Assembly (NCBI GenBank): GCA_009380105.1
Contig: WHSM01000002.1
Coordinates: forward strand, 1-47,892
DNA from: Micromonosporaceae bacterium
GTDB lineage: Bacteria > Actinomycetota > Actinomycetes > Mycobacteriales > Micromonosporaceae
Reading direction: 5' to 3'
DNA: 47,892 nucleotides
Shown: piece by piece, positions 14,677-20,465 of the stretch
Layout: the number at the start of each line of letters is the position of its first letter
Numbering within the stretch: position 1 is the first letter of the stretch
Translations under genes and position numbers: made by a program
Notes under the pieces: model-generated
The model's input: only the letters and a program-made list of their open reading frames with translations
The model's database searches: none
What the model was told of the DNA's origin: nothing

Positions 14677-14898
14677 GCGCGAATCGTCCTCTCCACAAGA
14701 GCCAGCGACCTCATACGATAACGCCTCTCCGTCGCGACCGTCTCACCGCCATCTCCAGTGAGCCCTCAAGATCCGTACCGTTGGACCGAGAGGCACATGA
14801 TTCGGGCTCAACCGTGTGTCTACAGGTCCGATGCCGCGGATCTGGCGGGGTCACCACGAAGTCCGGTAATCCTGGACGATAGGGTTCAGCGCACGCGG
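14677..14898. other. Intergenic region between secG and the lasso operon end
   Basis: A 222-base gap with no convincing gene. Near 14715 the minus strand reads TTATCGTATGAGG, a plausible -10 region for secG. A weak hairpin GTCC...GGAC (14861-14877) lies just past the acetyltransferase stop and may end the lasso operon. It forms the left border of the accessory island; no attachment-site repeat or tRNA was found. Confidence 0.5.
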
Positions 14899-15480
14899 TC
14901 ATGGGTTCGGCGGCGCGGTCAGGTTGGTCGCCACGACGGATTCGGCGCCAAAGTCGTCGGGCGTGGCGTCCATGATCAGTTCGTCGCAGGGCTGTCCGAG
15001 CCAGTACCCGGCCAGCCGAAGTCGTCCGGCGGGGCGGAATCCGGCACGCTGGTAGGCGCGCACACCGGCGGTGTTGGGCTCCAGCACCTTGAGCCAGACC
15101 ATGCGCAGCGCGGCAAGGTGAAACGCCCAGTCGAGGGTGAGGCGAGTGGCCTCTGTGGCGTAGCCGTGGCCGCGGGCCTCAGGGGCGAGCAGGATCACGT
15201 ACTCGGCGGTCCTGACCTGGTGGTCTACATGCAGCACCGTCATGCCGATCGGCTGGTTGTCGGGCAGGCGGATGACCTCGAAACGGGCCTGTCGGTCGCT
15301 GCCGCGGGCTTGGGCCTCGTAGCCGGCGGCGCGGGTCTCCCACGACTGCGGTAACTGGGTGCCGTACCCGAGGACGACACCGGGCTCGTTCTCCCACCGG
15401 TGATACTCGGGCAGCATGTCGGCGCGGGTCATGCCTAGGGCCAGTTTGCTTCCCCGCAGCAGAATCTGTGGCTCACTCAC
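14899..15480 (-). CDS. GNAT N-acetyltransferase, predicted lasso-peptide lysine acetyltransferase
   Basis: A 193-residue GNAT enzyme of the RimJ/RimL type. The acetyl-CoA site is LAPEARGHGYATEATRLTLDWAF (residues about 99-121), with the later motif VLEPNTAGVRAYQRAGFRPAGR. The GTG at 15480 has GGAGGT seven bases upstream and overlaps the protease gene by eight bases, so it belongs to the lasso operon. In the albusnodin cluster a co-encoded acetyltransferase modifies the lysine that follows the ring acid. The precursor here has the equivalent Lys10, so that is the predicted target. The family is certain, the substrate inferred. It is last in the operon. Confidence 0.85.
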   Translation of the reverse strand: MSEPQILLRGSKLALGMTRADMLPEYHRWENEPGVVLGYGTQLPQSWETRAAGYEAQARGSDRQARFEVIRLPDNQPIGMTVLHVDHQVRTAEYVILLAPEARGHGYATEATRLTLDWAFHLAALRMVWLKVLEPNTAGVRAYQRAGFRPAGRLRLAGYWLGQPCDELIMDATPDDFGAESVVATNLTAPPNP

Positions 15481-16213
15481 GGGCACCTCCGGTCTGATCT
15501 TGGTTGATCGGTGTGTATTGGATCGTGTCAGCGGCTTCATCGATAGGCCGTCCCGCTTCGTCGGCGAGCCAGGCGTGGAGGCGGAGCGGGTCGATGGCGA
15601 TGCCGTGGACCCAACGAGCGCGACATCCCGCGGAGGCCAGCAGCAGCCCGGCTGCCACTGATTCTTCCAGGCACGCGACCCGGGCGGGGATCAGGCGCGC
15701 CGCCCAACGCACCGCCCGAACCGCATGTCGGGCGCTGTCTGCTGTGGCTGGCGTCAGGCGGCTGCCGACGTTGGCGAGGGCCACCATGCGGGCAAACCTG
15801 CGGCGGCTGTGACCGATGTGGCGGACGGCAAGCGTGACCAGCACCGCGGGCACGGCTGCCAGGCGCCACCACCACGGCGACGCTGCGATGGGGTTGAGCT
15901 GGGTGGCCGCTTCCTGGGTGCCCCAGGATGCCGGGGAAGGTTCCAGGTACACCGCCGGAGTCCGATGCTGGCCCTCGCGACCGGTGATCAGCCACCCGCG
16001 GGCGGCCAGACCCGCTACCACGCTGCCCTGCCGGGACGTCACGGAAACGGTCGGCGTCTCCTGAAGCATTGACAGCCAGGTCGCCAGGGTCGCACCGGTC
16101 AGGACGGCAACGTCGCCGGTGTGATAGTCAACGATCAAGGTGACGTGCGGCGTTCGGATGGTCCGCACGTGCTGGGCCGGCATCAAGGGTTCGTCAGGCG
16201 AAGGCCTCATCAT
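15473..16213 (-). CDS. Fused lasso-peptide leader-binding domain and transglutaminase-like protease (B1-B2)
   Basis: A 246-residue protein that should bind and cut off the precursor leader. Residues about 17-78 look like a divergent PqqD-like recognition domain (VTLIVDYHTGDVAVLTGATL, then AGLAARGWLI). Residues 135-235 match lasso B2 proteases: Cys181 in RVACLEES, His213 in RLHAWL, and Asp225 in GRPIDE form the predicted triad. A hydrophobic stretch (WWWRLAAVPAVLVTLAV, 114-130) lies between and may touch the membrane. Actinobacterial B1 and B2 are usually separate genes, so this fusion is notable. The first of two consecutive ATG codons (16213) overlaps the cyclase stop as ATGA; the frame upstream is cyclase shadow. 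Confidence 0.85.
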   Translation of the reverse strand: MMRPSPDEPLMPAQHVRTIRTPHVTLIVDYHTGDVAVLTGATLATWLSMLQETPTVSVTSRQGSVVAGLAARGWLITGREGQHRTPAVYLEPSPASWGTQEAATQLNPIAASPWWWRLAAVPAVLVTLAVRHIGHSRRRFARMVALANVGSRLTPATADSARHAVRAVRWAARLIPARVACLEESVAAGLLLASAGCRARWVHGIAIDPLRLHAWLADEAGRPIDEAADTIQYTPINQDQTGGARE

Positions 16214-17916
16214 GTCGTCTGCCTGTCCTCGTAGGTCCATGAGACCTTGGGTGCTTTCGCAATGGTTCGGAGCCAGGTCTCGGCGCACAACAGCGGCGTG
16301 AGGTGACTCCACGTGACGTCGAGGCCAGCAGCGGCGCGGTGAATCTCGTCGGCGAGCCATCGTGGGTCCACGAGCCGCAGTCCTGAGAGGCGCCCCTCGG
16401 CCAGCGCCAGCACGCTGCCGAGATTGGCGCGCAGGCCTCGATGATGATCCCCTGCGAAGACGCCCTTCGCACCACGTTGTCGCACCGGATCGGGCAGCAG
16501 CCCTACGGTCACCTCGCGTAGCAGCGGTTTGTAACGATGCGCGGAGGTGCGCGCGCGGACCGGGACGGCCAGCACTGTGTCGAGAACGCGTGCGTCCAGG
16601 TACGGGTTGTGCATGGCGACCCCGAAAGCGTCGGCAAGCTGAGACTCCGTGTGCGCGGTCCGGGCAACCTGCCGCACTTCGGCTACCAGGACGCGGTCAG
16701 CGTGGCCGAGGTCGGCTGCCGCGTCCGGCGCCGTGACTCTCGCAGCGAGTTCGGCGGCGTGAGCAGTGACTCCAGGTGAGGCGATCCTCCCGGCGAGGTG
16801 TGTCGTGTCGCCGCGAACTGCGGCCGCGATCAGCGGCCATGGGCTGGCCCGTCGTAGTCGTGCCCAGCTCAGTGCGTCCGCGGCCAGTCGCAGCCAACGG
16901 CCGGAACGGGCGAGGTCTGCCAGGTACACCGGAGGCTGGCCGAATACTGTGTCGCCGCCGTCGCCTGTGAGGTGGCAGTCGATGTCCGCCCCGGCGAGTA
17001 GGCGAAGCTGAGTAGCCAAGCGGGTCCAGGTCGGCGTCGATGGCGCCGGTTCGTCGGTCGGCGGGAGGTCGTCAAGGCTCGTGTACGGCAGGTGCCGGCC
17101 GTCCAGAGGCAGCAGCACATGACGCAGGTTCGGGATGGCGGCGGCGGTGATCCGAGCGTAGTGGATGTCGCCCCCGGCGTTGACCGCCGCGGGATGGACG
17201 GTGACCCCGGTGATCGGCCCGCGCTTGGCGGCCAGCGCTGCGAGGGTGGTGGAGTCCAATCCGCCGGACAGGTCGGCTGCGGGCGTCGCGTCCGAGGTCC
17301 GGCAAGCCACCGCCGCGACCAGGGTTTCGCGAATTCGCAGAACTCCTTCGTCGCGGCGAAGGCGGCTGGGTTGCCATGCAGGCCGCAGAGTTTGCGAGCC
17401 ATCGGCGCTAACCGTGACGCGTTGGCCGGGAGGGAGCATCGCCACACCGGACCATGCGGAGCGACCGGGCACCGCGGCGGTGGGGTTGACCAGGCTGGCG
17501 GCCAGCCACGACTCGTCGACATCACCGTGGGTCAGGCCGGCCAGCGCCCGGGAACTGGACGCCCACACCAGCGCTCCACCTCGGGCCTGGGTGGTGTAGA
17601 TCGGAAGCGCGCCCGCCGGGTCGGTCATGATCGTGATTCGGCTGCTCGGCGCGGTGCGGACGATGGTGTAGGCGCCCGCCCAAGCGGTCAGCGCCGAGTC
17701 GGGAGGCCCATCGAGCAGCGTGGCCAGCTCAGCGTCGGTCGCCGAGCACGGCCCGACCACCACGACGGTCCTAGAGGCGTTATCCGTGACAACCCTGACA
17801 TGCTGTTTCGGCCACGAACCGGCTACCCAGATGGCTGGGTGGCTCGTCACGAACTCGGCATCCATGGGACGGGGAGCCGCGTTCCTGAAGCCCACGTGGC
17901 CACCGAACCAACGCAT
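16210..17916 (-). CDS. Lasso peptide cyclase, asparagine-synthetase-like
   Basis: A 568-residue homologue of asparagine synthetase B. It should adenylate the side chain of an acidic core residue and let the Gly1 amine close the macrolactam. The N-terminal glutaminase-like half lacks the catalytic Cys2 (it starts MRWFGG), as expected for lasso cyclases, which use no glutamine. The ATP pyrophosphatase loop LSGGLDSTTLAAL is at 216-228 and HLTGDGGDTVFG at 315-326; FGVAMHNPYLDARVLDTVLAVP and the end domain are complete. ATG at 17916 follows GAGAAAGGCGAGC. It is the second gene of the operon and overlaps the next by ATGA. Confidence 0.92.
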   Translation of the reverse strand: MRWFGGHVGFRNAAPRPMDAEFVTSHPAIWVAGSWPKQHVRVVTDNASRTVVVVGPCSATDAELATLLDGPPDSALTAWAGAYTIVRTAPSSRITIMTDPAGALPIYTTQARGGALVWASSSRALAGLTHGDVDESWLAASLVNPTAAVPGRSAWSGVAMLPPGQRVTVSADGSQTLRPAWQPSRLRRDEGVLRIRETLVAAVACRTSDATPAADLSGGLDSTTLAALAAKRGPITGVTVHPAAVNAGGDIHYARITAAAIPNLRHVLLPLDGRHLPYTSLDDLPPTDEPAPSTPTWTRLATQLRLLAGADIDCHLTGDGGDTVFGQPPVYLADLARSGRWLRLAADALSWARLRRASPWPLIAAAVRGDTTHLAGRIASPGVTAHAAELAARVTAPDAAADLGHADRVLVAEVRQVARTAHTESQLADAFGVAMHNPYLDARVLDTVLAVPVRARTSAHRYKPLLREVTVGLLPDPVRQRGAKGVFAGDHHRGLRANLGSVLALAEGRLSGLRLVDPRWLADEIHRAAAGLDVTWSHLTPLLCAETWLRTIAKAPKVSWTYEDRQTT

Positions 17917-17956
17917 ACGCTCGCCTTTCTCGCCATTGCTGTGCGGTCCGAGGGGG

Positions 17957-17987
17957 GTGGCGGTGCCCGTGTGCCGGGCACCGCCAC
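17957..17987 (-). terminator. Hairpin between lasso precursor and cyclase, probable attenuator
   Basis: A perfect 13-bp stem, GTGGCGGTGCCCG with CGGGCACCGCCAC, and a 5-base loop. It lies 22 bases after the precursor stop and about 40 bases before the cyclase start. In peptide operons such hairpins let much transcript stop after the precursor, or protect its 3' end, giving more precursor than enzyme. No T run is present. Confidence 0.6.
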
Positions 17988-18008
17988 TGCGTTAGCTCAC
18001 CGGATGGA

Positions 18009-18149
18009 TCACCCGTACGGATACCGCTTGTCTTCGATGCTGCTTCCGGATCCCCCGGCGGTGATCGAGGCGGCGTCGCCGATCAGCACCGTTCCTCGAA
18101 CCACCTTGGACGTGCGCTTGTCGGCCCTTCGAGCGAGTCTCTTGAACAT
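18009..18149 (-). CDS. Albusnodin-like lasso peptide precursor
   Basis: A 46-residue peptide gene, well supported by a near-perfect AAGGAGGTGA ribosome-binding site ahead of ATG 18149 and by its place at the head of the operon. The first 31 residues form a basic leader (starting MFKRLARRADKRTSK) ending in IGDAASITA. Thr30 is the conserved penultimate leader residue, and Gly24 has the usual spacing to it. The predicted 15-residue core is GGSGSSIEDKRYPYG. Gly1 would bond to Glu8 or Asp9, leaving tail KRYPYG or DKRYPYG. Albusnodin, as I recall it, has Gly1, Glu8-Asp9-Lys10-Arg11 and Tyr14 at the same places. The leader lacks the usual YxxPxL motif. Confidence 0.9.
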   Translation of the reverse strand: MFKRLARRADKRTSKVVRGTVLIGDAASITAGGSGSSIEDKRYPYG

Positions 18150-18321
18150 GGTCTTGTCACCTCCTTTTCGGACCCTGTCGAGAGCGTTGTGACCCTGAAG
18201 TTAGGGGCGCGCCGGAGGTGTAGCTGACACGATCTGTGTCAGGTGGCGTGGGATGCGGAGGCGGCCCGGCCGCATAGTCTGGGCGGTGATGAGCCCGCTG
18301 AGCGTCGACGGGAGTTCGCAC
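18150..18321. promoter_or_regulatory. Divergent promoter region of lasso operon and methyltransferase
   Basis: A 172-base region between the two start codons. The minus strand has TAACTT (18203-18198) as a possible -10 for the lasso operon. The plus strand has TAGTCT (18275-18280) as a possible -10 for the methyltransferase, which would start its message a few bases before the alternative ATG at 18289. No good -35 hexamer is present on either side, suggesting activator dependence or a special sigma factor. A perfect inverted repeat (listed separately) lies between them. Confidence 0.45.
18224..18242. promoter_or_regulatory. Perfect 19-bp inverted repeat, candidate operator of the lasso cluster
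   Basis: CTGACAC-GATCT-GTGTCAG has perfect 7-bp arms. It lies roughly 20 bases upstream of the lasso -10 candidate and about 32 bases upstream of the methyltransferase -10 candidate. This is the natural place for a shared regulator, most simply the XRE protein encoded 1 kb away. Binding is inferred. Confidence 0.55.
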
Positions 18322-19137
18322 ATGGCAGATGTCGAGGATTACGTCACGTCGAACCGCCACCTGTGGGACGAGTGGGCCGACATCCACGCTGCGGGCGACT
18401 GGTACGACCTTGACTCGGTGCGCAGAGGAGCCGACAAGTTGCGCCCGTATGAGGTGCAGGAGGTCGGCGACGTCAACGGGCTGACCATGCTGCACCTCCA
18501 GTGTCAGATCGGCACCGACTCGGTGTCTTGGGCGCGACGGGGAGCCAAGGTCACGGGGGTCGACTTCTCACCTCGCGCGGTGGAGATCGCGAACGCACTG
18601 GCCAAAGAGCTCGGCGTTGACGCGACGTTCGTGTGCGCGGATGTGATGAACCTGCCGGAAGTTCTGCCAGGCATCTGGGACGCGGTCTACACATCCCGGG
18701 GCGTCCTCGGCTGGCTGCCGGACCTAACAAAGTGGGCGCGAATGATCGCCGACTACCTCAAGCCCGGCGGATTCATGTACTTGACCGACATCCACCCGAT
18801 CGCCAAGGTGCTTGATGACACGTCCTCGGACCTGAGGGTGGCTCGCCCCTACTGGCCGCGTCCCGAGCCGATTGCCTACGGGGTCGACGGGACCTACGCC
18901 GACCCGACCGCCAAGGTAAGCACGACCGTGAAGTACCTGTGGACTCACAGCACGGGTGAACTGATCACGGCAGTCGGGCAGGCTGGCCTGATCATCGAGT
19001 TCTTCCACGAGTTCGAGTGGCTGGATCGGCCGTGGCCGTGTCTGCGTAAACAGGACGACCGTCACTATGTGTTGCCACAAAACGCCGGGGCCGAGCTTCC
19101 CCTCTTCTTCTCCCTGCGTGCCCGGAAGCCGCTGTGA
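18322..19137 (+). CDS. Class I SAM-dependent methyltransferase beside the lasso operon
   Basis: A 271-residue soluble methyltransferase. Motif I is MLHLQCQIGTDS (about 56-67), followed by GAKVTGVDFSPRAVEIANAL with the SAM-binding acid (79-83), FVCADVMNLPEVLPG, and LKPGGFMYLTDIHPI. The N-terminal MADVEDYVTSNRHLWDEWAD and a long C-terminal insert (YLWTHSTGELITAVGQAGL, then EFEWLDRPWPCL) are typical of small-molecule methyltransferases of this kind. ATG at 18322 has GGGAG upstream; an in-frame ATG at 18289 is the alternative. It diverges from the lasso precursor, so it may tailor the peptide, but the substrate is not readable. Its stop directly abuts the regulator's stop. Confidence 0.8.
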   Translation: MADVEDYVTSNRHLWDEWADIHAAGDWYDLDSVRRGADKLRPYEVQEVGDVNGLTMLHLQCQIGTDSVSWARRGAKVTGVDFSPRAVEIANALAKELGVDATFVCADVMNLPEVLPGIWDAVYTSRGVLGWLPDLTKWARMIADYLKPGGFMYLTDIHPIAKVLDDTSSDLRVARPYWPRPEPIAYGVDGTYADPTAKVSTTVKYLWTHSTGELITAVGQAGLIIEFFHEFEWLDRPWPCLRKQDDRHYVLPQNAGAELPLFFSLRARKPL

Positions 19138-20352
19138 TCAGTCAAGCACTCTCATAGCGTTCGCCAGGCACCGCAGTCGCTCATCGATCGAGCGCTTGCG
19201 GCGCACGAGATCTCTCACCTGGTCTCGGGCGAGCGGATCGTGGCAGACGAACCGTGGCGCGATGTGGTACGCCGCGGTCAATGAGTCAAGCATGGCGTCA
19301 TCGTTGCCCAGCATCCCGTGGGCTCGGGCAACGTGAATGTGGTGATAGCAGGATCGACTGACGCTGCCCGCGCGGTCGGCCCGCAATCCGGCTGCCTTCG
19401 CCACGGCGTCACGCGGCCGCTGGAGGTCGACCAACATTCCCACTGTCTGTATCTGGACGTTTGTGGGACCGAAGATCAGACAGTGTCTCTCACGGTCGCG
19501 GCCGGATTCCGCGGCGATGTCAACAGCGATCTTCAGCATGGCCTCGGCGTCGAACGCGTCTCCGGCTCGTGCCGCCGCCTGCGCCGCGTACAGGCGCAGC
19601 GCGCCTTGAATGACTGAATGCGATGCTCGATCATGCCTGGCCGTGACGCCTCGGCGAACCATGTCGACAGCGTCGAGCGCGAGCGCCACCGCGTCCTCCG
19701 GGTCGCCTTGCATCATGAGCTGCACAGTCAGAGTCGCGCTCACCGACGCGACCAGCAGTTCGTCACCCGCGCCTTCGGCCGTCAGCAGAGCGCGATCAAC
19801 CGCCAACCGCGCGCGTCCGTAATCCCCCTGTCGACGCAACTCCAAGGAAGCCAGGCGATAGAGGTTCGCGAGAGCGGTCTGCGCGAGGAGTCTTTCGGAT
19901 TCGTCACCGTGACTCGATGCCGCCCGGGCCTCCACGATGAGATCCCCGAGCAGAGGCACAGATGCGGAGAACCCTCGATCCGAAGTGTTGTAGAGCCGCC
20001 GTAGCGAACTCGCCTCTTCGGTGAGAGACCCGACCGGCCGGGTCGGACGGTCCGCGCGGGGTTCAATGCCGGCGCTGCGGTCGAGGACCCGACGCAGCCG
20101 GAGCATGCCTTCGTCGGCGGCACCGGGGTTCCGGTGACGATCTTCGTTCCCCGCAAGTTGATGCACGGGCACAGAAAGCGCACGCGAAAGCTCCAACAAG
20201 ACGCTCATGGAGTCCACACGACGCTCACCACGCTCGACCTTGGTCACCCAGCTTATTGAACGGTTCAGACGCAGCGCGAGACCTTCCTGCGTCCACCCCC
20301 GCAACTTGCGGAACACGGCTATCCGTCTGCCAAGCGGCAAGTCCCCGTCCAT
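19138..20352 (-). CDS. XRE-family regulator with helical-repeat (TPR-like) domain
   Basis: A 404-residue protein. Residues 6-60 form a Cro/C1 helix-turn-helix (RKLRGWTQEGLALRLNRSIS, then VTKVERGERRVDSM). From about 130 on it is all-helical with repeated alanine- and leucine-rich pairs (LLAQTALANLYRLASLELRR, YGRARLAVDRALLTAE, DAVALALDAVDMVRRG) resembling TPR arrays that sense small molecules or peptides. This architecture is common among actinomycete secondary-metabolite regulators. ATG at 20352; a tentative -10 lies upstream in ACTAGTTTCC. It probably controls the divergent lasso/methyltransferase promoters through the nearby inverted repeat; this is inference from position. Confidence 0.82.
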   Translation of the reverse strand: MDGDLPLGRRIAVFRKLRGWTQEGLALRLNRSISWVTKVERGERRVDSMSVLLELSRALSVPVHQLAGNEDRHRNPGAADEGMLRLRRVLDRSAGIEPRADRPTRPVGSLTEEASSLRRLYNTSDRGFSASVPLLGDLIVEARAASSHGDESERLLAQTALANLYRLASLELRRQGDYGRARLAVDRALLTAEGAGDELLVASVSATLTVQLMMQGDPEDAVALALDAVDMVRRGVTARHDRASHSVIQGALRLYAAQAAARAGDAFDAEAMLKIAVDIAAESGRDRERHCLIFGPTNVQIQTVGMLVDLQRPRDAVAKAAGLRADRAGSVSRSCYHHIHVARAHGMLGNDDAMLDSLTAAYHIAPRFVCHDPLARDQVRDLVRRKRSIDERLRCLANAMRVLD

Positions 20353-20407
20353 CCATTGACTCCATCCAGGCCGACCCCCAGGTGATGACAGGGTGTAGGA
20401 AACTAGT

Positions 20408-20434
20408 CACGCGTTGGGCTACGCCAATCGCGTG
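20408..20434 (-). terminator. Hairpin terminator after the substrate-binding lipoprotein gene
   Basis: CACGCGTTGG pairs with CCAA and CGCGTG with a single bulged T and loop GCTACG. It lies about 32 bases past the lipoprotein stop and before the XRE promoter, and forms the right border of the accessory island. Confidence 0.55.
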
Positions 20435-20465
20435 TGTTCTGAATCGGTCGAAGTGGCCGCTGCGG

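Follow-up and report, generated by a model that had tools for sequence, protein, structure and literature searches.

A methyltransferase-XRE regulator gene pair beside an albusnodin-type lasso operon, with an inverted repeat as candidate shared operator

The window considered here is the whole stretch of DNA that was analysed, 47,892 bp of contig WHSM01000002.1 from a Micromonosporaceae bacterium. Judged from its genes, the lasso cluster in it is an albusnodin-type operon. The precursor gene albA (18009-18149, minus strand) encodes 46 amino acids, scores 31.3 bits with the albusnodin-family model NF033525 (cut-off 30) and has the likely core GGSGSSIEDKRYPYG, in which a lysine at position 10 matches the Lys10 described in excerpts of PMC9266682 as conserved in this family. 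Also on the minus strand lie albC (16210-17916), encoding a macrolactam cyclase of the albusnodin/ikarugamycin family (NF033561, 634 bits against a cut-off of 300), albB (15473-16360, with a true start probably nearer 16210), encoding a lasso B2 (transglutaminase-like) protease (NF033537, likewise above its cut-off), and albT (14899-15540), encoding a GNAT acetyltransferase according to its domain match. The cyclase, protease and acetyltransferase genes stand together in one operon, and the order of precursor, cyclase, B2 protease and GNAT is that of known albusnodin-type clusters (albA-C-B-T), from which this locus differs by a divergent methyltransferase (MT) gene and a convergent XRE gene within the same inserted block. 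Among the 354 genomes of the host family, an AlbC-type cyclase was found at E≤1e-50 in the host only. Cyclases of the albusnodin/ikarugamycin type are also present on eight actinomycete plasmids (L143-L150), including four of Pseudonocardia, three of these with an Apterostigma (ant) source; the lasso cassette, too, is mobile.

The divergent gene encodes a SAM methyltransferase, as the initial annotation had proposed, and the enzyme is of class I (Pfam Methyltransf_25, 8e-14). Its open reading frame on the plus strand could begin at 18253, but the homology with its closest orthologue starts precisely at the ATG at 18322, which makes 18322-19137 the probable extent of the gene; a GGGAG upstream also favours this start. 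The divergent gap between albA and the MT gene then spans 18150-18321 (172 bp). A role of the MT in defence or as a DNA methyltransferase was set aside, as the protein gave only a partial match to the mads_2 domain of PADLOC and a weak one to DNA methyltransferases of PHROG. Its structure predicted without an alignment had a pLDDT of 36.5. Viral contigs contained no match to the MT, and one weak match to the XRE protein, limited to the helix-turn-helix.

The XRE-type regulator gene (19138-20352, minus strand) ends exactly where the MT gene ends, the two stops abutting as TGA|TCA at 19135-19140, just as first annotated. The N-terminal part of the protein is an HTH_31 domain (3e-10, 40.8 bits against a gathering score of 27), and the full length matches phrog_5823 at 4e-70. 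The annotation of the protein as an XRE/TPR regulator thus stands for its first half, while the TPR half is limited to a match to the NCBIfam model NsdA_fam_reg below its cut-off (49.4 bits against 75, with 50.7 bits for the closest orthologue) and to a low-confidence structure model (pLDDT 54) with an all-helical C-terminal part. As regards a TPR domain like that of RRNPP-type peptide-sensing regulators, no Pfam TPR model matched the protein at E≤0.01, and a fold search with the model returned weak TPR matches, PlcR and Rap chains among them, none at E≤0.001. The resemblance to PlcR/Rap-type regulators, which also join a helix-turn-helix to helical repeats, is one of predicted architecture only. 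The protein is like the NsdA-family and HTH_31 helical-repeat regulators of actinomycetes (phrog_5823) in its length, its HTH_31 N-terminus and its helical C-terminus; it differs from them in scoring under the NsdA_fam_reg cut-off and in being encoded stop to stop with an MT. The predicted helical, TPR-like C-terminal part would be compatible with ligand sensing. For NsdA, a distant relative, in vivo binding targets have been reported, and the terms "palindrom" and "inverted repeat" are absent from that report (PMC12243394).

Between secG and the gene of an ABC solute-binding protein (SBP), a single insert of roughly 5.7 kb holds the lasso operon, the MT gene and the XRE gene; the interval from the secG start codon to the end of the SBP gene is 14677-20465. 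None of the 12 relatives whose tpiA and secG surroundings were read has the block, which argues that its three components share a single insert. The SBP gene directly precedes secG in five of these relatives, and in the other seven tpiA precedes secG without an SBP gene. A boundary marked by a tRNA or by direct repeats was ruled out, as the window contains no tRNA and the direct repeats at the block ends do not exceed 9 bp. The G+C content is 63-66% in the MT-XRE part and 66-71% in the greater part of the lasso genes; in much of the surrounding core genes it is 70-77%.

A search of the class with the XRE protein at E≤1e-42 identified a single genome, G403, among the 393 others (394 with the host), with 66% identity. 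There the XRE orthologue stands beside an MT orthologue (78% identity), in the same convergent arrangement with abutting stops, and no lasso gene was found in the 19.9 kb read around the pair. This genome has 9.8 Mb and is listed with 6% contamination. Judging from this recurrence, which involves two MT-XRE pairs only, the pair is a module separable from lasso genes. On the far side of the G403 MT lies an operon (L153:1361-8258) of FxLD-type RiPP character, containing two thiopeptide-type (Lant_dehydr_C) genes over the cut-off, a PCMT gene and two Methyltransf_19 genes; one methyltransferase of this operon resembles the FxLD-system family below its cut-off (258 against 320 bits). Facing the pair there is what, judged by eye, may be the remains of a LanC-like gene.

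The wider MT family is common, homologues with 30-47% identity being present in 27 of 61 relatives' genomes, the host included (E≤1e-30). To this extent the MT family does occur widely without lasso genes. The tight MT-XRE pair, however, is rare: no relative of the XRE gene was found near the MT at the 20 loci with wide flanks, nor at the remaining loci with short flanks. Close MTs are also rare, since at E≤1e-70 the host itself was the only one of 397 genomes of the order with a match. The nearest named MTs are encoded on two Nocardia plasmids, NZ_AP026977.1 (65% identity) and NZ_CP109569.1 (62-64%), where each gene overlaps or touches an upstream GntR gene near transfer genes, and no lasso genes are present in the stretches shown. 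These four MTs, from the window, G403 and the two plasmids, form one clade with 100/100 support, which indicates that the MT moves; in each case it stands next to a regulator. The plasmid loci (L126:7264-8819 and L127:7216-8780) lie beside transfer and partition genes and represent a second pairing of such an MT with a regulator on mobile DNA. They are like the window in having a same-clade MT next to a regulator, and differ in that the regulator is a GntR protein (with a UTRA domain in the one tested), encoded upstream and touching the MT gene, and in lacking a repeat like that of the window.

The gap between albA and the MT gene contains the perfect inverted repeat CTGACAC-GATCT-GTGTCAG (CTGACACGATCTGTGTCAG) at 18224-18242, a candidate XRE operator common to the divergent lasso and MT promoters. 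Both 7-bp arms are perfect, as already annotated. Measured from the centre of the repeat, the albA start is 84 bp away and the MT start, taken at 18322, 89 bp. The 4.65-Mb host genome has a single exact copy of it and nine further places with two mismatches. Upon dinucleotide shuffling of the 172-bp gap, a perfect repeat with 7-bp arms arose in 9.1% of the shuffles when spacers of up to 10 were allowed, a figure that fell to 5.5% for spacers of up to 5. The repeat is therefore not significant by itself (P about 0.06-0.09), and alone it proves nothing.

The case for the repeat is raised by the recurrence of similar sites near the orthologous pair in G403. Around the recognition helix the two XRE proteins hardly differ, and similar sites are therefore to be expected for both. 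The core TGACACNNNNTGTG, which is common to the window repeat, is present in five copies in the 9.8 Mb of G403, two of which flank its MT-XRE pair, one upstream of the MT and the other upstream of the XRE gene, where no gene was recognised. Across 1.147 Mb of non-duplicate DNA this core, a pattern written after the G403 sites had been seen, has three copies, namely the window repeat and these two flanking sites. A test that depends less on hindsight counted the 19-mers matching the window repeat in at least 14 of 19 positions: the pair of G403 has three of them in a span of 2.7 kb, one inside the XRE coding sequence, against 24 elsewhere in 1.08 Mb, no two of which were within 3 kb of each other. 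For this background we left out the duplicate loci (L008-L054, L151, L154 and L159-L163) and the loci of the host genome itself (L001, L005, L040, L095, L125 and L152). None of 3000 permuted palindromes reached three such sites at the G403 pair and 0.23% reached two, while 0.2% of random palindromes reached three. A stricter statistic on the common positions was unimpressive (4.1% with permuted and 16% with random palindromes), and each G403 site keeps only part of the palindrome. Moreover, no site of at least 13 of 19 positions was found upstream of the XRE gene in the window, and no convincing 16-bp motif turned up that the sequences preceding the MT and XRE genes have in common in the two organisms. 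On balance, the repeat is somewhat more likely to be the XRE operator than not.

The main alternative, possible though in our view somewhat doubtful, is that the palindrome is fortuitous. The module, the operon and the repeat would then only share an insertion hot spot, and the XRE protein would regulate the MT alone through other sites. The shuffling frequencies given above speak for it, and so does the lack of conservation: no copy of the repeat was found upstream of other lasso operons, so it is indeed not conserved at lasso loci, and among 32 other MT genes only one has a similar site nearby, a version with two mismatches at L077. In both orthologues there is also a different conserved stretch, GGAGGC...CGC-TA-TCTG, closer to the start of the MT gene. 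Against a chance palindrome speaks the way in which repeat-like sites gather around the pair in G403.

Two hexamers of the gap resemble actinomycete -10 elements and could serve as promoters. TAGTCT (18275-18280, plus strand) is the putative -10 of the MT gene, and G403 has a TAATCT similarly spaced from its own MT start; TAACTT (18198-18203, minus strand), read by eye, would be that of the lasso operon. As the promoter scan recovered no sigma-70-type site or consensus promoter in the gap, the transcription start sites are guesses. The repeat, midway between albA and the MT gene, precedes both putative -10 boxes, and so the XRE protein, if it binds there, may set lasso and MT transcription together. 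The initial annotation had already proposed one regulator controlling both arms. In favour of this, the pair recurs as a unit, the G403 sites flank it, and the window site is about equidistant from both starts. On the other hand, the spacing differs between the loci: 89 bp separate the site from the MT start here, whereas the G403 sites are 219 bp (MT) and 426 bp (XRE gene) away.

Considering these data, we regard the chances as about even that a portable MT/XRE module has landed beside an albusnodin-type lasso operon with its operator also at the lasso promoter. The MT and the XRE regulator would form a portable two-gene module that now shares one horizontally acquired block with the lasso operon. 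A dimer of the regulator would most likely bind CTGACAC-N5-GTGTCAG, and the same class of site would serve the MT/XRE pair in the source module. Activation is weakly favoured over repression because the repeat is centred at about -42 relative to the guessed start of lasso transcription and at about -54 relative to that of the MT. A ligand in the helical C-terminal domain might switch the regulator, and the MT probably acts on a substrate other than the lasso peptide, such as a small molecule, perhaps the signal of the XRE protein itself.

It is very unlikely that the repeat acts instead as an RNA hairpin, whether terminator or attenuator, or is the scar of a recombination that joined two pieces of DNA. 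The minus strand could form a 7-bp stem with a 5-nt loop (-9.6 kcal/mol, z = -2.9), but this has no T-run, is absent from the list of terminator-like structures and has no Rfam match, both transcripts probably start downstream of it, and we discarded a terminator or RNA element for its lack of terminator character and of an Rfam match. The location of the repeat at the junction of the lasso operon and the MT-XRE module would suit a scar, against which stands the absence of flanking direct repeats longer than 9 bp at the block ends.

The least probable reading, raised in the initial annotation and rejected here, is that the MT is a tailoring enzyme that methylates the lasso peptide besides its lysine acetylation and is co-regulated with the operon: the MT is a divergent neighbour in the same block and methyltransferases are known in other lasso clusters (excerpts of PMC9266682 and PMC13352647), but this MT family is absent from all 27 other albusnodin/ikarugamycin-type loci, including L061, and its closest relatives, the G403 pair and the plasmid genes with GntR, are free of lasso genes in the stretches read. 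These 27 loci comprised 18, one from the scan of the genome collection and eight on plasmids, were read over some 7 kb to either side, or to the contig end where this came sooner, and were searched with a profile built from 32 MT homologues. The AlbC scan of the collection had given two loci, of which L094 was dropped for being on the same contig as L067. The lasso methyltransferases described in excerpts of PMC9266682, PMC13352647 and PMC8498205, which also treat acetylation by AlbT, are C-terminal O-methyltransferases and PIMT-like enzymes; no PCMT model matches the window MT. For albusnodin-type operons the same excerpts name no regulator, XRE or other, and do not mention this MT, and no paper on either was found among titles and the opening lines of abstracts.

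A more far-reaching idea, rather improbable in our estimation, is that of a mobile control cassette, in which an XRE regulator and an MT making or silencing its ligand would carry their own operator and, on landing head to head, impose a transplanted signal on unrelated RiPP operons, lasso here and FxLD-type in G403. Independently of this idea, an XRE/MT module that is portable and has a recognisable operator would offer a handle to switch on silent lasso and lanthipeptide operons. What the abundant actinomycete XRE regulators sense would also become directly testable, because the paired MT narrows the candidates.

XRE-type regulators are encoded next to other lasso operons as well, divergently adjoining albA in L059 and L144 and downstream in L093. 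Matches at E≤1e-25 are present in 348 of the 354 genomes of the host family, so these neighbours may be due to chance and the enrichment is weak. The lasso loci compared also vary in other respects. The window core GGSGSSIEDKRYPYG is one residue apart from that of L061 (GGSGSSVEDKRYPYG), while the leaders are strongly different, that of the window being basic. Two operons on Streptomyces plasmids (L147:9614-10624 and L148:9633-10655) contain a PqqD domain and a terminal methyltransferase, PIMT-type or other, which the MT profile did not match; in both, the precursor is preceded by a divergent hypothetical gene of some 458 aa. L069 is a decaying albusnodin-type locus, in which AlbC has an in-frame TAA and neither AlbB nor AlbT was matched within the stretch, and its genome has another copy (L064). 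This second copy carries within one lasso operon two tandem albT-like acetyltransferase genes (L064:10115-11312), with 61% and 53% identity to the AlbT of the window.
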